Positions 7,884 through 15,127 of a DNA stretch of 64,000 nt are shown here, piece after piece. Every line of letters starts with the position of its first letter. Positions within the stretch are counted from its first letter, which is position 1. Both the position numbers and the translations under genes were made by a program. A model generated the notes under the pieces. The model was not told where the DNA came from and searched no databases. It saw only the letters and a list, made by a program, of their open reading frames with translations. This stretch comes from Thiohalobacter sp. IOR34 (GTDB taxonomy: Bacteria; Pseudomonadota; Gammaproteobacteria; Thiohalobacterales; Thiohalobacteraceae): the NCBI RefSeq assembly GCF_030406045.1, contig NZ_CP128988.1, positions 1,585,438-1,649,437 on the forward strand, in the 5' to 3' direction.

Positions 7884-7913
7884 AAAAAAGGCCGCGCATT
7901 GCGCGGCCTTTTT
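7884..7913. terminator. Bidirectional intrinsic terminator
   Basis: AAAAAAGGCCGCGC / GCGCGGCCTTTTT stem with a 3-nt loop, between the convergent genes ending at 7758 and 7933. Confidence 0.9.
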
Positions 7914-7932
7914 CATCCGGATGGGATCGAAC

Positions 7933-8136
7933 TCAGCGCTCGGAACCCTTCTCGGCGTGCGCCAGGTCGACGACCTTCATGGCGATATCGCGGTATTCCT
8001 GACGGAAACCGTCCAGCGGGTGACCCGACTCGGGTGCATAGTAATCCTTGGGATCGACACCGTTCTGGTGCTCGTAATCCATGAACTTCTTCTGCATTTC
8101 CAGCATTTTCTTAATCAAGTCAGCCTTTTCGCTCAT
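7933..8136 (-). CDS. Small helical protein downstream of rspA
   Basis: 67 aa from ATG 8136 (MSEKADLIKKMLEMQKKFMD); an upstream ATG at 8154 overlaps the ribosome-site region and is less likely. A strongly amphipathic N-terminal helix is followed by the segment GVDPKDYYAPESGHPLDG. No cysteine. It is the last gene of the leftward TauD-Cas6-RspA group, about 107 bp after the rspA stop, and ends at a strong terminator. Less GC-biased codon use suggests good expression. Family not recognised. Confidence 0.65.
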   Translation of the reverse strand: MSEKADLIKKMLEMQKKFMDYEHQNGVDPKDYYAPESGHPLDGFRQEYRDIAMKVVDLAHAEKGSER

Positions 8137-8243: not shown

Positions 8244-8582
8244 TCAGTAACCGCCCTTGCGGGTGCTCTGCGAGAGGCCGGCGATCTTCCGGCCCTGCTT
8301 GCTGGGCATCAGCGGGAACAGCTGGTACATGTCCTTGCTGGTCGGCTTGGTGCCCCATTTCTTGGCCATGGCCTTGAGGATGGTGCGCTCGTTGGGCTCG
8401 TTGCCGCCGTTGTTGATGTGCTCGTCGCGCAGGTAGTGGATGACGTCCCAGTGCTGCTCGGTCAATTCGATGCCTTCCTGCTCGGCGATCAGCTTGGCAA
8501 CGTCCTCGTTCCAGTCGTTGTAGTCGACCAGATAGCCGTTCTCGGTGGTTTCGATGGTTTTGCCGTTTACTTCGATAGCCAT
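8244..8582 (-). CDS. rspA: RspA: DsrC/TusE-family protein lacking both C-terminal cysteines
   Basis: 112 aa from ATG 8582 (MAIEVNGKTIETTENGYLVD), the same length and fold signature as DsrC (ELTEQHWDVIHYLRDEHINN). The C-terminal arm ends KQGRKIAGLSQSTRKGGY, so both redox cysteines of DsrC (positions 98 and 109 in the window's own DsrC) are absent. Such proteins have been termed RspA and are thought to be regulatory or structural rather than sulfur-carrying (family knowledge). It sits between a Cas6-like gene and a small helical gene in a leftward cluster divergent from dsrA. It is one of three DsrC homologues here. Confidence 0.8.
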   Translation of the reverse strand: MAIEVNGKTIETTENGYLVDYNDWNEDVAKLIAEQEGIELTEQHWDVIHYLRDEHINNGGNEPNERTILKAMAKKWGTKPTSKDMYQLFPLMPSKQGRKIAGLSQSTRKGGY

Positions 8583-8698: not shown

Positions 8699-9385
8699 TC
8701 AGCTGTCCTTCACCGAGCTGATCCCCTTGTGGGGGATGAACAGGCCGCAGCCCAGCTTGCGCCCCGGACCGACCCCCTTTTGCTGCAGGCGCACCGCCCG
8801 CTCCGGCTCCAGGTCGGCGATCATCACGCTGCGGGTGTGCAGCACCCCCTCGGGGGTACGAAAGGCGTGCGAGCGGCCGGCCATCAGCTTGCGCACCGGG
8901 ATGTCCAGGGCACGCAGTGCCTCGACCACCCCGTACAGAAAGTCCTCCTCGGACTGTTCCGGATCGGTCACCACATAGCGCGAGAACAGCGGCGACAGGG
9001 TGCTCAGCAGCCGGACCGTGGCGCTGCCGACGCCAAGCGGATGGCCGGCGATGTCCAGGGTCATGCCTTCCAGGCGGCGCGCGTCCTCCAGCCGGGACTT
9101 GGGCAGACGCAGGGTCATGCGGGCCCGGCGCCGCGGCAGGTGCAGCAGCTCGTGCTCCACGTCCTCGGGCCGGAACCAGCCGTTGCCGGACTCGGCGCCG
9201 TGAATCAGATGCACCCCGGCATCCGGCTCCTCTTCCAGCCAGGGCAGCGCCGCCAGCAGCGCCGAGGACAGGGCATGGGCATGATCCAGCGGCAGGGTGC
9301 GGCAGTCGATGCGGAAGCTGAGATCGACGATGTCGTCCGGAACCTGGTAGGGGGTGTCGTCTTCGATATCCTCTTGCCAGAACAT
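8699..9385 (-). CDS. Stand-alone Cas6/Cmx6-like CRISPR RNA endoribonuclease family protein
   Basis: 228 aa from ATG 9385 (MFWQEDIEDDTPYQVPDD). The strand-helix pattern of a RAMP fold is clear: VDLSFRIDCRTLP at the start, RARMTLRLPKSRLEDARRLEG, IAGHPLGVGSATVRLL. The glycine-rich Cas6 signature GVGPGRKLGCGLFIPHKGI is at the C-terminus (~residues 201-219). This matches the Cas6/Cmx6 family of type I-MYXAN (Cas6 normally cuts CRISPR repeat RNA). Histidines near residues 36-38 and in GVHLIHGAE could serve catalysis. No CRISPR array or other cas gene is in the window. It lies in a tight leftward cluster: a 64-aa gene 19 bp upstream and rspA downstream. Confidence 0.75.
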   Translation of the reverse strand: MFWQEDIEDDTPYQVPDDIVDLSFRIDCRTLPLDHAHALSSALLAALPWLEEEPDAGVHLIHGAESGNGWFRPEDVEHELLHLPRRRARMTLRLPKSRLEDARRLEGMTLDIAGHPLGVGSATVRLLSTLSPLFSRYVVTDPEQSEEDFLYGVVEALRALDIPVRKLMAGRSHAFRTPEGVLHTRSVMIADLEPERAVRLQQKGVGPGRKLGCGLFIPHKGISSVKDS

Positions 9386-9404: not shown

Positions 9405-9599
9405 TCAACGTTTCGGTGCCTGCGCGAAGGCCGCCTCCAGGCGATCCTCCCAATCCGCCGGGGTGTCCGGGAACGGTGGCTTGACGTCCATCTGGAAGAA
9501 CAGCTCCCCCTGGGCGGCACGTTCCTGCACCTTGCGGCACAGGTCCTCGAAGGAGGCCAGATCGTGTTCCTGTAGCAGCACTTCGCTCAACCAAAGCAT
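9405..9599 (-). CDS. Small acidic protein between tauD-like and cas6-like genes
   Basis: 64 aa from ATG 9599 (MLWLSEVLLQEHDLASFEDL). Predicted helical N-terminal half, Pro/Asp-rich middle (KPPFPDTPADWED). Its start is 2 bp from the TauD-like stop codon and its stop is 19 bp before the Cas6-like start, so the three genes are almost certainly translated from one mRNA. A partner for either protein is plausible; no family recognised. Confidence 0.6.
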   Translation of the reverse strand: MLWLSEVLLQEHDLASFEDLCRKVQERAAQGELFFQMDVKPPFPDTPADWEDRLEAAFAQAPKR

Positions 9600-9600
9600 G

Positions 9601-10551
9601 TCATGTCTCTCCTGCCGGTAGGGATAGGTCGCGGATGCGGTCGTAGTAGCGGGCCCGGTACAGCAGCCGCTGCCGTTCCGGCGCGGCGCCGTCCTCGAAG
9701 GCGGTACGGCAATGCAGCACATTATTGCAGATCACGCCCTGCCCCGCCTTCAACCGCAGGCGGTAGATCCAGGGACTGCCCTCCGCCCACAGTGCCTGCA
9801 GCGCCTGGGCCGCGGCCCGGGTCAGCGGGTCGTCGCGCCACTGGATGTTGCGGGTCCGGGCGCTGTAGCGCATGTGAAGGCTGCCATCCTGCCGATCGAC
9901 GCTGAACACCGGTCCGCTGGCGGTGCCGCGCAACTGCCGGCCCTCCACCTCGTTGGGCGGAATGGTCATGGCATCCGGCCGCATCAGCGCCTCGATCAGG
10001 GCCGGATCCTGGTCGCGCAGGGCGATATAGGCCAGCTCGTGGTCGAGCAGGAGGCTCTCACCACCCTGCGCCGCCGGTCGCACGCAATGCAGGATGAAGG
10101 CGCGGATGCGCTGCCCGGGCGGATTGTAGTAGCCATCGGTGTGCCAGCTCAGGCGACGATTGGTGTAGGGGATGTAATGGCGCTTGCTGCCGTCCGCCGA
10201 TACCGCCAGTGCCGTGACCCCGTCGTCCTCTGCACACAGGTTGCCATCCAGCCGCTGCAATCCGAACTGCCGCCCCAGGGCCCGCAGCGCGGCACGGTCG
10301 ACCGCCCGCCCGCCCAGGTCGTAGACGGCCAGATTGGCGCGCCGGCAGCGGTCGAGGATCGCCGCACGCTCCGCCGCGGTCGGCGCCGCCGGGTCGCCGA
10401 GCGGCACGATCAGCTCCGCCAGCTCCGGGCGGGCCGCCAGCCTGGCATCGCGCCAGCGGCGGTAGGCCTCGGGGGCATCGAGCCGGAACGGGCTGTCGGC
10501 AGGAATGGCGGGATCGGGGACGGACATCTGGGCGGGCACGCGGTTTCTCAT
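9601..10551 (-). CDS. TauD/TfdA-family Fe(II)/2-oxoglutarate dioxygenase
   Basis: 316 aa from ATG 10551 (ATG 10527 also possible). The triad is visible: H and D in LSWHTDGYY (~residues 153-155), distal His in NNVLHCRTAFED (~284), and the 2OG-binding Arg in RLLYRARYYDR near the C-terminus. TauD/TfdA enzymes often cleave sulfonates or hydroxylate betaines; the substrate here is unknown, though placement beside dsr makes a sulfur compound tempting (inference). It heads the leftward cluster with the 64-aa, Cas6-like, RspA and 67-aa genes, and is divergent from dsrA across a 459-bp spacer. Confidence 0.8.
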   Translation of the reverse strand: MRNRVPAQMSVPDPAIPADSPFRLDAPEAYRRWRDARLAARPELAELIVPLGDPAAPTAAERAAILDRCRRANLAVYDLGGRAVDRAALRALGRQFGLQRLDGNLCAEDDGVTALAVSADGSKRHYIPYTNRRLSWHTDGYYNPPGQRIRAFILHCVRPAAQGGESLLLDHELAYIALRDQDPALIEALMRPDAMTIPPNEVEGRQLRGTASGPVFSVDRQDGSLHMRYSARTRNIQWRDDPLTRAAAQALQALWAEGSPWIYRLRLKAGQGVICNNVLHCRTAFEDGAAPERQRLLYRARYYDRIRDLSLPAGET

Positions 10552-11010
10552 CGGGCGCCCATTGTAGCCGCAGCGGCGCACCGCCCAACAGCGCATTTGC
10601 TGGTAGAATTGCCGGGCCGGGCCCGGCCTCTGGGCGCCTATTCCTTTAGTAAGGTACCCATACCGCCACATGAACAACAGCCTGTAACTATATAATAAAA
10701 AAATAATTCCCAGGGAGGTCGCGCGACAGATCCTGACAGCCCGCCGGTGGGCGCGGCAACAAAACGGCGATTGAAACGCTATCCCAAAAGGGGTAGGCTA
10801 CTTCGCCCTGAACACCCCATGGGTAGGGTATTCTCAACGCGATCAGCACCCTAGACTTGCCGACACAGAAAACAGGGACTCGTGCGTATCAACCGGCCCT
10901 GTTATCGTTCACGGCCGCAGCTGCGTGAACAGCGGGCCAGTTGATTTATCGACGGTCACCCGAAAGGTGGCCGTCTGCACAATCTGCCATTCCACATTGA
11001 GGAGACAAAC
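10552..11010. promoter_or_regulatory. Divergent control region between the TauD-Cas6-RspA cluster and the dsr operon
   Basis: This 459-bp spacer has lower GC in its centre, including tataataaaaaaataatt near 10690. Two direct repeats, GGGTAGGCTACTTC (10791-10804) and GGGTAGGGTATTCT (10821-10834), are exactly 30 bp apart. NarL-like heptamers (TACYYMT) occur at 10655-10661 and, inverted, at 10789-10795 and 10819-10825, the last two overlapping the repeats. A hairpin AACAGGG/CCCTGTT spans 10871-10903 in the likely dsrA leader. A GAGGAG ribosome site precedes dsrA. I could not assign -35/-10 boxes with confidence. Confidence 0.5.
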
Positions 11011-12267
11011 ATGGCTGACAAGCACCATGAAACTCCGATGCTCGACGAACTGGAAAACGGCCCCTGGCCGAGCTTCATTTCGGGCATCAAGCGTCTGCGT
11101 GACAACCACGAAAGCGAAAAGATTCGCGGTATGGCCAATTCCCTGCTTGGCCAGCTTGAGCACTCCTACGAAACCCGCAAGGGTTACTGGAAGGGCGGTA
11201 CGGTTTCCGTGTTCGGCTATGGCGGCGGCATCATCCCCCGCTTCTCCGAAGTCGGCCATGCCTTCCCCGAGTCCAAGGAATTCCACACCCTCCGCGTCCA
11301 GCCGCCACCGGCAAACTTCTACACCACCGACATGCTCCGCAAGCTGGGCGACAGCTGGGAGAAATACGGCTCCGGCCTGCAGACCTTCCACGGTCAGACC
11401 GGCAACATCATGTTCATCGGTACCGACACCGAGAACACCCAGCACTTCTTCGACGAGATCAACGACTACGGCTGGGACCTCGGCGGCGCCGGTCCCTGCG
11501 TGCGTACCGGCATGTCCTGCGTCGGTGCTGCCCGCTGTGAGATGTCCTGCTGCTCCGAGCACAACATCCACCGCGCACTGATGAACAACTTCACCGACGA
11601 CGTGCACCGTCCGGCCCTGCCCTACAAGTTCAAGTTCAAGATCTCGGGCTGCCCGAACGACTGCCAGAACTCCATCGAGCGTTCCGACTTCGCCGTCATC
11701 GGCACCTGGCGCGACGCCATGCAGATCGACCAGGACGAGGTCAAGAACTACGTCCAGACCAAGGGCCGCGAGTACATCCAGGAGAACGTCATCAGCCGTT
11801 GCCCGACCAACGCCATCGCGCTGAACGACGACGACACCATCACCGTCAAGGACCACGAGTGCGTGCGTTGCATGCACTGCCTGAACGTCATGCCGAAGGC
11901 CCTGCACCCCGGCAAGGACAGGGGCGTCACCATCCTCATCGGCGGCAAGCGCACCCTGAAGATCGGCGATCTGATGGGCACCGTGGTGGTTCCGTTCAAG
12001 AAGATGGAAACCGAGGAAGACTACGAGTCCCTGGTCGAGCTGGCCGAGGAGATCATCGACTTCTGGGCCGAGAACGGTCTCGAGCACGAGCGCTGCGGCG
12101 AGATGATCGAGCGTATCGGTCTGGTCAACTTCCTGGAAGGTATCGGCATCGACGTTGATCCGCACATGATCAGCACTCCGCGCCGCATCTCCTATGTCCG
12201 CATGGACGGCTGGGATGAAGAGGCCGAGAAGTGGTTCCAGCGCAAGGCCGAGGAAGCCGCCGGCTGA
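11011..12267 (+). CDS. dsrA: Reverse dissimilatory sulfite reductase, alpha subunit
   Basis: 418 aa. DsrA of the cytoplasmic alpha2beta2 siroheme enzyme that, in oxidisers, converts DsrC-bound or persulfidic sulfur to sulfite. Visible are the paired [4Fe-4S]-siroheme cysteine motifs (C-x5-C in SCVGAARCEMSC, then CPNDC, ~residues 170-218). The inserted ferredoxin domain follows (CPTNAI and CVRCMHCLNVMPKAL, ~266-298). Full length with a strong GAGGAG ribosome site. The first gene of dsrABEFHCMKLJOPNR. The oxidative type is inferred from the linked dsrEFH and dsrL. A 9-bp hairpin follows the stop. Confidence 0.98.
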   Translation: MADKHHETPMLDELENGPWPSFISGIKRLRDNHESEKIRGMANSLLGQLEHSYETRKGYWKGGTVSVFGYGGGIIPRFSEVGHAFPESKEFHTLRVQPPPANFYTTDMLRKLGDSWEKYGSGLQTFHGQTGNIMFIGTDTENTQHFFDEINDYGWDLGGAGPCVRTGMSCVGAARCEMSCCSEHNIHRALMNNFTDDVHRPALPYKFKFKISGCPNDCQNSIERSDFAVIGTWRDAMQIDQDEVKNYVQTKGREYIQENVISRCPTNAIALNDDDTITVKDHECVRCMHCLNVMPKALHPGKDRGVTILIGGKRTLKIGDLMGTVVVPFKKMETEEDYESLVELAEEIIDFWAENGLEHERCGEMIERIGLVNFLEGIGIDVDPHMISTPRRISYVRMDGWDEEAEKWFQRKAEEAAG

Positions 12268-12352: not shown

Positions 12353-13429
12353 ATGGCACTCGAAGACATGCGTCCGCCGATCGAATCCGGCTGCCCTGAC
12401 GGCTTCCAGTACATGCATCCGACCATGCGCCGCAACTACGGCCAGTGGAAGTATCATGAAGATCCGCGTCCCGGCGTGCTCAAGCACGTTGCCTACAGCG
12501 GCGACACCGTCTGGACCGTCAAGGTCGGCACCCAGCGTATCCTCGACATCTTCACCCTGCGCACCCTGTGCGACATCGGTGACAAGTATGCCGACGGCTA
12601 CATCCGCTTCACCATCCGTTCGAACCTGGAATACATCGTCGACGACGAGTCCAAGGTCGAGCCGCTGATCAAGGCGGTCGAGGATGCCGGCTTCGTGGTC
12701 GGCGGTACCCGCAACTCGGTCACCACCCTGTCCCACACCCAGGGCTGGCTGCACTGCGACATCCCCGGCACCGACGCCTCCGGCGTGGTGAAGTCCATGA
12801 TGGACGAGCTCATCGACGAGTTTAAGTCCTGGAACATGCCGAACCGCGTGCATATCACCACCTCCTGCTGCCAGATCAACTGCGGCGGCCAGGGTGATAT
12901 CGCCATCAACGTGCAGCACACCAAGCCGCCGAAGATCAACCACGACCTGGTCTCCAACGTCTGCGAGCGCCCCTCGGTGGTCGCGCGCTGCCCGGTCGCG
13001 GCCATTCGTCCGGCGATGGTCAACGGCAAGCCGTCCCTGGAAGTGGACGAGAAGAAGTGCATCTGCTGCGGCGCCTGCTTCCCGCCCTGCCCGCCGATGC
13101 AGATCAACGACGCCGAGCACACCAAGCTGGCCATCTGGGTCGGTGGCAACCACTCCAATGCCCGTGGCAAACCCACCTTCCAGAAGCTGGTCGCCTCCGG
13201 CATCCCCAACAATCCGCCACGCTGGCCGGAAGCCACGGCCATCGTCAAGCGCATCCTCAAGGCCTACAAGGAAGGCGCGAAGGATTGGGAGCGTATCAAC
13301 GACTGGATCGAGCGCATCGGCTGGCCGCGTTTCTTCGAGGTCACCAACCTGCCCTTCACCAAGTATCACATCGATAACTGGAAGGGTGCTCGCAACAGCC
13401 TGAACGCTTCGACCCACATCCGCTTCTGA
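12353..13429 (+). CDS. dsrB: Reverse dissimilatory sulfite reductase, beta subunit
   Basis: 358 aa with an AGGAGA ribosome site. DsrB carries the catalytic siroheme partner site of the DsrAB heterotetramer. Cysteines are seen in ITTSCCQINCGGQGD (~residues 163-172) and in the ferredoxin domain (CPVAAIRP; CICCGACFPPCPPM, ~210-246). The C-terminus (TKYHIDNWKGARNSLNASTHIRF) is typical of DsrB. It follows dsrA by 85 bp holding a hairpin, and is followed by another GC hairpin before dsrE. All expected domains are intact. Confidence 0.98.
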   Translation: MALEDMRPPIESGCPDGFQYMHPTMRRNYGQWKYHEDPRPGVLKHVAYSGDTVWTVKVGTQRILDIFTLRTLCDIGDKYADGYIRFTIRSNLEYIVDDESKVEPLIKAVEDAGFVVGGTRNSVTTLSHTQGWLHCDIPGTDASGVVKSMMDELIDEFKSWNMPNRVHITTSCCQINCGGQGDIAINVQHTKPPKINHDLVSNVCERPSVVARCPVAAIRPAMVNGKPSLEVDEKKCICCGACFPPCPPMQINDAEHTKLAIWVGGNHSNARGKPTFQKLVASGIPNNPPRWPEATAIVKRILKAYKEGAKDWERINDWIERIGWPRFFEVTNLPFTKYHIDNWKGARNSLNASTHIRF

Positions 13430-13468
13430 TCCGGATGTAGAAGGGACGGGCAGATCCTGAAACATGCT

Positions 13469-13493
13469 GCGGCCGGCGCACCGCGCCGGCCGC
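13469..13493 (+). promoter_or_regulatory. Intercistronic hairpin dsrB-dsrE
   Basis: GCGGCCGGCGC / GCGCCGGCCGC, 11-bp perfect stem with a 3-nt loop, extended by gaaac...gtttc on the outside. The run after it is only TTTC, so partial termination or 3'-end protection of dsrAB mRNA is likelier than full termination. Confidence 0.7.
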
Positions 13494-13548
13494 AAGTTTC
13501 AAGATCGGCCAGCACGACCATAGGCAAGATATTTAGGACAGAACCGGC

Positions 13549-13941
13549 ATGAAACTAGCGGTAATGGTGAATGAAGGCCCCTATCAGCATCAGTCGTCTG
13601 ATAGCGCATTGCAGTTCGTCAAGGCTGCGCTCGACAAGGGCCACGAGATCTTCCGCGTGTTCTTCTACCACGACGGCGTCAACAACGGCACCCGTTACGG
13701 CGTACCGCCGCAGGATGACCGCAACATCACCGTCCAGTGGAGCGAACTCGCTGAAAAACACAACATCGATCTGGTTGTATGCGTCGCTGCCGCCCAGCGT
13801 CGCGGCATCCTCGACGCCGACGAGGCGAAGCGGCACGGCAAGGACGGTGACAACATCGCTCCCGGCTTCCGCATCTCCGGCCTCGGTCAGCTCATCGAGG
13901 CAGGCATCCAGAGCGACCGTCTGGTCGTATTCGGTGACTAA
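13549..13941 (+). CDS. dsrE: Sulfurtransferase subunit DsrE
   Basis: 130 aa. Part of the cytoplasmic DsrE2F2H2 hexamer that passes persulfide sulfur to DsrC; related to E. coli TusD. The conserved active-site cysteine is at residue 78 (DLVVCVAAAQRRG), the position known to be essential in A. vinosum. Presence of dsrEFH next to dsrAB marks the oxidative pathway. dsrF follows 24 bp downstream. Confidence 0.97.
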   Translation: MKLAVMVNEGPYQHQSSDSALQFVKAALDKGHEIFRVFFYHDGVNNGTRYGVPPQDDRNITVQWSELAEKHNIDLVVCVAAAQRRGILDADEAKRHGKDGDNIAPGFRISGLGQLIEAGIQSDRLVVFGD

Positions 13942-13965
13942 TCGGCTACTGCAAGAAGGTTTTCA

Positions 13966-14385
13966 ATGATGGAAAACGAGGGCTCAATCAAAAAGTTCAT
14001 GTACGTGAACCGCAAGGCTCCGTACGGCACGATCTACGCGCTCGAGTCTCTCGAAGTTGTGCTGATCGGCGCAGCCTTTGATCAGGACGTCAGCCTGGTT
14101 TTCGTGGATGACGGCGTGTATCAGCTGCTCAAGGGTCAGGATACAACCGAGATTGGCATGAAGAATTTCTCCCCGATCTACAACGTCCTGGGCGACTACG
14201 ACATCAACAAGCTGTATGTCGAGAAGGAATCCCTGGAAGCCCGCGGCCTGACCCTGGACGACCTCCAGGAGATCATGTACGAGGACGAGGACGATGACTG
14301 GGCGGAGAAACCTTCTATCAGGTTGGTGTCCGCGGCAGAAATCGCCGATCTGATGGACGAGCAGGACGTCGTCCTCAGCTTCTAA
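13966..14385 (+). CDS. dsrF: Sulfurtransferase subunit DsrF
   Basis: 139 aa if the first of two consecutive ATGs is used (13966; 13969 equally possible). Contains KKFMYVNRKAPYGTIYALESLEVVLIGAAFDQDVSLVFVDDGVYQLLKGQ, with its conserved DsrF/TusC fold; it lacks a catalytic cysteine, as is usual, and is the structural middle member of the DsrEFH hexamer. The acidic C-terminal region (EDEDDDWAEK) is typical. Sits between dsrE and dsrH with ~20-bp gaps. Confidence 0.96.
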   Translation: MMENEGSIKKFMYVNRKAPYGTIYALESLEVVLIGAAFDQDVSLVFVDDGVYQLLKGQDTTEIGMKNFSPIYNVLGDYDINKLYVEKESLEARGLTLDDLQEIMYEDEDDDWAEKPSIRLVSAAEIADLMDEQDVVLSF

Positions 14386-14405
14386 CTGACTCGAGGTACA
14401 GAACC

Positions 14406-14714
14406 ATGGCGATGTTGCACACAGTCAACAAGTCACCTTTCGAAAACCGCAGCCTGGACTCCTGCATTGCCCATGCAAAGCCCGGCAGCAGCATCCTTCT
14501 CATCGAGGACGCCGTGGTCGGCGCCGTCGAGGGAACGGCGGTTTCCGGCAAGGTGAAAAGCGCAATCGAAGCTTGCAAGCTTTATGTACTTGGCCCGGAT
14601 CTCAAGGCCCGGGGCATCCCTGAAGACCGGCTGATCGACGGCGTCGGCGTCGTCGACTATGGCGGGTTCGTTGACCTGGTTACGGAAAACGACAACGTCC
14701 AGGCCTGGCTTTAG
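14406..14714 (+). CDS. dsrH: Sulfurtransferase subunit DsrH
   Basis: 102 aa. Third member of DsrEFH, homologous to TusB. The conserved cysteine is at residue 20 (SLDSCIAHAKPGSSILLIEDAV). It takes part in sulfur relay toward DsrC. A good ribosome site (CGAGG) precedes ATG 14406; dsrC begins 45 bp downstream. Confidence 0.97.
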   Translation: MAMLHTVNKSPFENRSLDSCIAHAKPGSSILLIEDAVVGAVEGTAVSGKVKSAIEACKLYVLGPDLKARGIPEDRLIDGVGVVDYGGFVDLVTENDNVQAWL

Positions 14715-14759
14715 GATCTATTCACTCTAGCTGGAACTCTTAACGAGGAGATCAAAGAG

Positions 14760-15092
14760 ATGAGCATCGAAGTAAACGGTAAGGTCCTGGAGACGGACGA
14801 GGAAGGCTACCTGGCAGACCTGAATCAGTGGGAGCCCGAAGTGGCCAACGTCATGGCCAAGCTCGACGACACCGAGCTGACCGACGCCCACTGGGAAGTG
14901 ATCAACTTCCTGCGTGAGTACTATGACGAGTACCAGATCGCCCCGGCGGTCCGCGTCCTGACCAAGGCCATCGGCAAGAAGCTGGGCAAGGACAAGGGCA
15001 ACAGCAAGTACCTCTACGAGCTGTTCCCCTACGGTCCTGCCAAGCAGGCGTGCAAGTACGCCGGTCTGCCGAAGCCGACCGGCTGCGTCTGA
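14760..15092 (+). CDS. dsrC: DsrC, sulfur carrier and DsrAB substrate protein
   Basis: 110 aa, MSIEVNGKVLETDEEGYLAD. Both redox-active C-terminal cysteines are present at residues 98 (QACKYAG) and 109 (penultimate, PTGCV), the hallmark of functional DsrC. In oxidisers DsrC receives sulfur from DsrEFH and presents it to DsrAB; its trisulfide or disulfide form is linked to DsrK of the membrane complex. A clear AACGAGGAGA ribosome site and a following 9-bp hairpin suggest high, separately stabilised expression. Compare the cysteine-free RspA (8244-8582) and the double-domain homologue (46996-47766). Confidence 0.98.
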   Translation: MSIEVNGKVLETDEEGYLADLNQWEPEVANVMAKLDDTELTDAHWEVINFLREYYDEYQIAPAVRVLTKAIGKKLGKDKGNSKYLYELFPYGPAKQACKYAGLPKPTGCV

Positions 15093-15105: not shown

Positions 15106-15127
15106 AAGGGGGGGTTATCCCCCCCTT
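15106..15127 (+). promoter_or_regulatory. Intercistronic hairpin dsrC-dsrM
   Basis: AAGGGGGGG / CCCCCCCTT, 9-bp stem with TTAT loop, 13 bp after the dsrC stop. No T-run. Likely protects the upstream dsrC message and lowers expression of the membrane-complex genes. Confidence 0.7.

Follow-up and report, generated by a model that had tools for sequence, protein, structure and literature searches.

In the window (the whole stretch of DNA that was analysed, 64 kb), a series of genes on the minus strand diverges from a dsr operon on the plus strand. Nearest to dsrA, the series begins with a gene for a TauD/TfdA-type dioxygenase (9601..10551; PF02668, 84.8 bits) and continues with the gene of a 64-aa protein conserved among related genomes (sml64, 9405..9599). 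The third gene is a 228-aa ORF with an ATG start (window:8699-9385), whose product is Cas6/Cmx6-like by TIGR02807, PF09559 and its structural model, and which we call Cas6L. It is followed by a DsrC-family gene whose product has no cysteine (8244..8582; TIGR03342, 100.1 bits against a cut-off of 53.5), and further downstream by a conserved 67-aa gene (7933..8136) that is found in 46 of 83 loci and whose product has no match in NCBIfam, Pfam or PADLOC. The gaps along this series, in the same order, are 1, 19, 116 and 107 bases. The dsr operon opens with dsrA (11011..12267; TIGR02064, 632.7 bits), followed at 12353..15092 on the same strand by ORFs that we take to be dsrB, dsrE, dsrF, dsrH and dsrC, and whose order recurs in related loci. 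An earlier interpretation of this DNA (hereafter the sequence-only reading) had placed the Cas6-like gene between the 64-aa gene and the DsrC-family gene, divergent from dsrA, and this gene order is borne out.

The interval between the 67-aa gene and the next gene holds a GC-rich inverted repeat with flanking runs of A and T (window 7884-7917), probably a two-way terminator judging from its letters. Sub-threshold matches to Rfam leaders also fall at this place.

Homology, predicted fold and conserved residues

In profile searches, Cas6L exceeds the cut-offs of both TIGR02807 (cas6_cmx6; 8.4e-35, 120.5 bits, cut-off 98.85) and the Pfam family Cas6 (PF09559; 6.6e-60, 202.8 bits, cut-off 26.7), and six PADLOC models match it at 1.2e-59 to 1e-16 (three for Cas6, and one each for Cas6a, Cas6b and Cas6b2). 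The AlphaFold2 model, computed from an input alignment of 57 proteins (mean pLDDT 91.7, pTM 0.87), presents the double ferredoxin-like fold of Cas6. Its top match among solved structures is 8fcj_B (Foldseek E 1.5e-16), with 198 residues aligned by VIA-align at Z 24.4 and rmsd 2.2, and five other Cas6/RAMP entries, including ones from Pyrococcus, align at Z 14.7-17.0. This relation to Cas6 is far beyond chance, and Cas6L is a true homologue. The sequence-only reading had described a 228-aa Cas6-like protein with a glycine-rich motif, a description that the TIGR02807, PF09559 and PADLOC matches and the predicted fold uphold, and the HMM search that it proposed as a check returned a Cas6 relation rather than none.

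The glycine-rich motif quoted there (GVGPGRKLGCGLFIPHKG) lies near the C-terminus, and G204, G206, G212 and G214 within it are conserved in our alignments. In Cas6 enzymes, a histidine of the first helix is catalytic. We take His35 of Cas6L, which stands at the start of helix 1 in the alignments (codon at 9281..9283, minus strand), to be the putative counterpart of this residue. It is retained in 54 of the 55 dsr-type proteins aligned, the sole exception being an Asn in L055 (from G067), despite a mean pairwise identity of only 46% for Cas6L (40 loci), and in 13 of 13 proteins when six dsr-type sequences are aligned with seven from cyanobacterial plasmids. R87, R93 and G214 are invariant in 57/57 dsr-type proteins. 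Most of these also share a C-terminal PHK and a conserved SGNGW loop, the latter missing from three more distant proteins of the same class; this loop and a conserved N-terminal Trp/Glu are low-confidence parts of the model. An Asn of 8fcj_B sits opposite His35 in the phmmer alignment, which counts against cleavage, and, according to an extract of PMC4041471, the catalytic histidine is absent from some Cas6 enzymes.

Genomic independence from CRISPR and linkage with dsr

A scan of the window for arrays (three or more spaced exact 20-mers) returned none, and all Cas1 and Cas10 matches of the genome fall outside the window; the earlier statement that these 64 kb hold no array and no other cas gene stands for arrays and, among cas genes, for these two. 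The check for an array elsewhere in the genome, also proposed there, had a positive outcome. About 248 kb from Cas6L, the genome carries a III-B CRISPR system (L062:4522-9700 and L123) with 54 repeat copies in two arrays, encoding Cas10, Cmr3, Cmr6, a weak Cmr1, CARF proteins and Cas1. This system has a dedicated Cas6 of another family (344.5 bits) and should therefore not need Cas6L, which is the single PF09559 gene of the genome. Between the two arrays lies a 363-aa ORF (L062:5643-6734), possibly an insertion element. Right after Cas1, a second, diverged Cas1-like protein is encoded (L062:10751-11563), which scores 33 bits to a model described as 'diverged variant, second in the loci'.

We extended the comparison to 144 genomes, comprising 11 of the window's family (itself included) and one from each of 133 other families of the class. 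Cas6L is present in 55 of them, always in single copy. Cas1 was detected in 24/55 genomes with Cas6L and 28/89 without, and there is no association (p 0.16). A genome-wide count of three marker genes (Cas1, Cas3 over the cut-off, and Cas10 at E <= 0.001) came up empty in 23 of the 55 genomes with Cas6L; 20 of these 23 are at least 90% complete and seven are single-contig assemblies. When the three markers are pooled, they are slightly commoner with Cas6L (32/55 versus 33/89, p 0.016), which speaks weakly against a non-CRISPR reading; some proteins with other cyclase domains may have passed as Cas10 at this permissive threshold. Of 157 loci, two contain array-like repeats, defined as a 20-mer present at least three times: L079, with 3 copies, and L178, with 4 at a contig end about 3 kb from Cas6L. 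Cas6L is independent of CRISPR markers and of its host's own CRISPR system, and in the window it does not lie with an array, Cas1 or Cas10. Sequence and predicted fold place it in the Cas6 superfamily, and by context the defining feature of a CRISPR-associated Cas6 is missing.

The association with dsr is strong. In the same 144 genomes, dsrA scores above its curated cut-off in 56, or 58 when the fragments in G043 and G089 are counted as positive. With these included, dsrA accompanies Cas6L in 52 of 55 genomes, and conversely Cas6L is present in 52 of the 58 with dsrA (Fisher p 1.6e-28, a value that is only descriptive because the genomes compared are relatives); with both fragments left out, the figures are 51/55 and 51/56. 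The three genomes with Cas6L and no dsrA match (G077, G103, G136) have contigs that stop 0.8 to 2.2 kb past Cas6L, on the side where dsrA is expected. Among the six with dsrA and no Cas6L (G009, G010, G080, G089, G120, G132), four are less than 82% complete, and the contig of G132 stops about 200 bases past its 64-aa gene; G120, at 94% completeness and with its dsr cluster entire, seems genuinely to lack Cas6L.

Cas6L lies within 6 kb of dsrA on the same contig in 41 of the 55 genomes, with a median gap of 1699 bases; in 11 it does not, and the remaining three are those with no dsrA match. Four of the 11 separations (G001, G097, G100, G108) look like assembly breaks at contig ends, and G011 has two contigs that each carry a 64-aa gene and a TauD gene. 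In the other six (G019, G042, G052, G067, G107, G119) Cas6L looks truly apart from dsr, in one case at a distance of 41 kb on the same chromosome. That the two genes co-occur in these six genomes although apart argues against mere hitchhiking.

The series of DsrC-family gene, Cas6L, 64-aa gene and TauD gene facing dsrA recurs across related loci. Cas6L was found in 54 of 75 loci read, with a DsrC-family gene near it in 43 of the 54. At least 572 stretches of a one-genome-per-species collection encode relatives of Cas6L; among the best 80 of these together with three loci of the phylum sample described below (83 loci, often on short fragments, the 80 partly overlapping the 144-genome sample), the 64-aa gene is present in 76, the DsrC-family gene in 68 (7 of them in opposite orientation), the TauD gene in 66 and dsrA in 53. 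The named carriers among the matches listed are mostly gammaproteobacterial and include Thiohalobacter thiocyanaticus, Thiogranum, Thiohalomonas denitrificans, Candidatus Venteria, Parabeggiatoa, Marithrix and Thioploca. One Cas6L-dsr locus (L157) is assigned to a MAG named 'Halobacteria archaeon', which wrong labelling or a mixed bin would explain better than a copy in an archaeon. A second dsrAB, without dsrEFH, is present in three genomes, with no Cas6L on the stretch read (L114, L115, L116). The homologues lie beside dsr and not beside arrays; the opposite outcome, homologues that are always next to CRISPR arrays, is what the sequence-only reading had named as counting against it.

The taxonomic limits of Cas6L were drawn from 299 genomes sampled evenly across the window's phylum (Pseudomonadota). 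PF09559 is found in four, and all four loci, one of which is that of the window, carry dsrA and a DsrC-family gene. Among the 51 genomes of this sample with dsrA above the cut-off, PF09559 is present in all four that belong to the window's class (Gammaproteobacteria) and in none of the 47 of other classes, so Cas6L is not needed for Dsr as such. Out of these 47, 16 loci were read, and dsrE, F or H is present in just six of the 16 (L212-L216, L218). Many of the other-class genomes may therefore carry another kind of dsrAB, and may not be sulfur oxidizers of the same kind as the Cas6L carriers.

A tree of the family separates 57 dsr-type proteins from seven of cyanobacterial plasmids at 100/98 support. 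As this tree is unrooted, with a bootstrap that has not settled and a long-branch warning where the two groups join, we drop the direction of evolution (from CRISPR to dsr or the reverse) from our conclusions. Distances between Cas6L proteins correlate with those between the DsrA proteins of the same loci (r 0.54, 40 loci, with 0 of 2000 permutations as high), which fits shared descent.

Neighbouring proteins, dsr hairpins and the control region

The DsrC-family neighbour (P0003), which is presumably of the RspA type, contains no Cys and hence does not have the C-terminal cysteines of DsrC. All 43 of the DsrC-family homologues found near Cas6L end in KGGY, and 36 of the 43 are without any Cys. 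With such a terminus, this protein has no C-terminal cysteine for carrying sulfur, and a regulatory or docking role is plausible.

The 64-aa protein is encoded in 48 of the 144 genomes, 47 of which have Cas6L. It has no match in NCBIfam, Pfam or PADLOC, and its model (pLDDT 88) has none in the PDB at E <= 0.001. L212, L214, L215 and L216, dsr loci from other classes, weaken the case for a dedicated partner of Cas6L: in all four, the TauD and 64-aa genes adjoin dsrA and there is no Cas6L. Cas6L may thus have joined a TauD/64-aa/dsr arrangement that was already in place. In L214-L216, the position of Cas6L is taken by a gene of 71 to 116 aa (none is listed in L212), followed by a long ORF that seems to resemble siroheme synthase.

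The hairpins of the dsr message, which the sequence-only reading had put forward as a possible target, find no support in this role. A hairpin between dsrC and dsrM (15106..15127, plus strand; counted in these gaps when at least seven consecutive bases pair) is found in 36/38 loci with Cas6L and in 19/20 without Cas6L on the same fragment. Ten of these 20 belong to genomes in which the search did not find Cas6L (L104-L108, L212-L216), and nine of the ten have the hairpin. With these counts, and with a sequence that differs from species to species, we reject it as a specific target. Overall, a dsrC-dsrM hairpin of varying sequence occurs in 55 of the 58 loci folded, and is possibly a partial terminator or a stabiliser of the dsrC message.

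The gap between dsrA and dsrB contains a hairpin in 33/42 loci with Cas6L and 23/35 without. Its folds are stronger with Cas6L (median -27.5 versus -14.0 kcal/mol; median z -2.6 versus -0.8 against mononucleotide shuffles), a comparison in which the group without Cas6L includes distant dsrAB-only loci. This difference leans towards a target in the dsr hairpins; the dsrA-dsrB hairpin is also present in 9 of the 10 loci just listed. We found no conserved RNA element in the dsrA leaders or Cas6L-RspA gaps examined, and the seven Rfam matches in window 4000-26000 are all under their gathering scores.

A short block like GCACAACCTGCCAT precedes dsrA in several members of the window's family. The intergenic region between the two facing operons contains a palindrome (TATCCCAAAAGGGGTA, 10780..10795) that is a candidate shared operator. 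In 40 of 100 unique upstream regions of 500 bases, the palindrome TAYCCCNNNNGGGRTA lies 134-294 bases ahead of dsrA; in the whole window, at one mismatch, it occurs twice, where 0.25 occurrences are expected. We propose it as a candidate site of a shared dsr regulator, and, since it lies in the region between the operons, both may respond to the same regulator.

Function and comparison with known systems

Cas6L appears to be inherited with the sulfur-oxidation genes and unconnected with CRISPR, and therefore probably handles RNA of that pathway. The most economical reading, we infer, is that it works as a Cas6-type protein and handles RNA on behalf of the sulfur oxidation genes. With moderate confidence, we see in Cas6L a Cas6-family protein outside CRISPR that is a stable part of the reverse-Dsr set of Gammaproteobacteria and acts on one or several RNAs of sulfur metabolism. 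The sequence-only reading had suggested recruitment to cut a cellular RNA; the non-CRISPR and dsr-tied setting, the usual proximity of a DsrC-family gene and the retained histidine fit a cellular job, but not the choice of a dsr hairpin as the substrate. Such a protein would keep the chemistry of Cas6, a metal-independent cut at one site of a small structured RNA by means of His35. It would be made together with the dsr genes from the shared divergent control region and would act on one or more sulfur-metabolism RNAs, most likely resulting in a post-transcriptional adjustment of dsr expression, possibly under the control of the cysteine-free DsrC-like neighbour. A bolder version, which we offer tentatively, is that early in the class a CRISPR-type endoribonuclease became a dedicated RNA processor of the sulfur regulon, with a non-CRISPR substrate and under a cysteine-free DsrC paralogue, and is now widespread and misnamed as CRISPR.

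The Cas6 fold and the basic residues R87 and R93, invariant in all 57 proteins, would also suit an RNA-binding regulator whose cleavage was lost or never used, and which would bind a leader or small RNA and control the translation or stability of the dsr message. The nearest solved relative, with its Asn opposite His35, indicates that family members without this histidine exist; yet His35 is kept in 54/55 proteins in spite of the low overall identity, and we consider this regulator unlikely. Improbable in our view is a role in which the Cas6 fold no longer touches RNA and the protein serves the sulfur pathway as a structural component or scaffold, for instance as a partner of the DsrC-like protein. 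Such a role would account for the DsrC-family neighbour in 68/83 loci with its constant KGGY tail (43/43), and for the conserved N-terminal Trp/Glu and SGNGW loop, low-confidence in the model as partner-binding segments often are, but not for the fact that the histidine and the glycine-rich motif of Cas6 are conserved. We give hardly any credence to an ordinary CRISPR Cas6 that would act in trans on distant arrays and lie beside dsr by accident. TIGR02807 is labelled as a CRISPR equivalog, the genome does contain a III-B system with its 54 repeat copies, and the pooled markers are slightly commoner with Cas6L; however, that III-B system has its own Cas6, Cas1 shows no association and all three marker genes are missing from 23/55 genomes, the co-occurrence with dsrA is strong, and array-like repeats are confined to 2/157 loci.

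A working Cas6-type protein in the sulfur regulon would place a member of this family in an apparent metabolic role, tied to a globally important pathway, and Cas6L with its His35 provides a named gene and residue for asking whether RNA controls sulfur oxidation. The NCBIfam name 'type I-MYXAN Cas6/Cmx6' can wrongly imply CRISPR in sulfur oxidizers, because all four PF09559 matches in the 299 genomes of the phylum are of the dsr-linked type. We found no report of a link between Cas6 and dsr in the titles and abstract beginnings listed by searches of open-access literature. Extracts of PMC5944118, PMC5728499, PMC10952691, PMC8889020, PMC8616872, PMC11406059, PMC3368242 and PMC10212523 were also considered; in the four sulfur-oxidizer papers among these, the single mention of Cas6 is in a CRISPR passage or gene list.

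Several known systems share features with this locus. The neighbour of Cas6L belongs to the same DsrC/TusE family (TIGR03342) as the DsrC and RspA proteins, and is without C-terminal cysteines, unlike sulfur-carrying DsrC. A precedent for a Cas6 cutting non-CRISPR RNA is Cas6-3 of Sulfolobus solfataricus, which, as reported in an extract of PMC4041471, acts on ncRNA60, not a CRISPR repeat; according to the same extract it cuts CRISPR repeats too, whereas Cas6L has no CRISPR link. The closest solved fold, that of the Cas6 of a type I-B CRISPR-associated transposon (PDB 8fcj, Z 24.4), belongs, going by the title of the entry, to a Cascade complex and has Asn opposite His35, in both respects unlike Cas6L. 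The Cas6/Cmx6 proteins of I-MYXAN CRISPR, represented by seven cyanobacterial plasmid copies, are of the same family by HMM and have in common with Cas6L an Asp-His pair at helix 1 and the glycine-rich C-terminal motif. They are 24-28% identical to the dsr-type proteins, most of which differ from them by the extra SGNGW loop and the C-terminal PHK, and in six of the seven records cas3 is the next gene (no cas neighbour is listed for the seventh), whereas the neighbours of Cas6L are linked to dsr.
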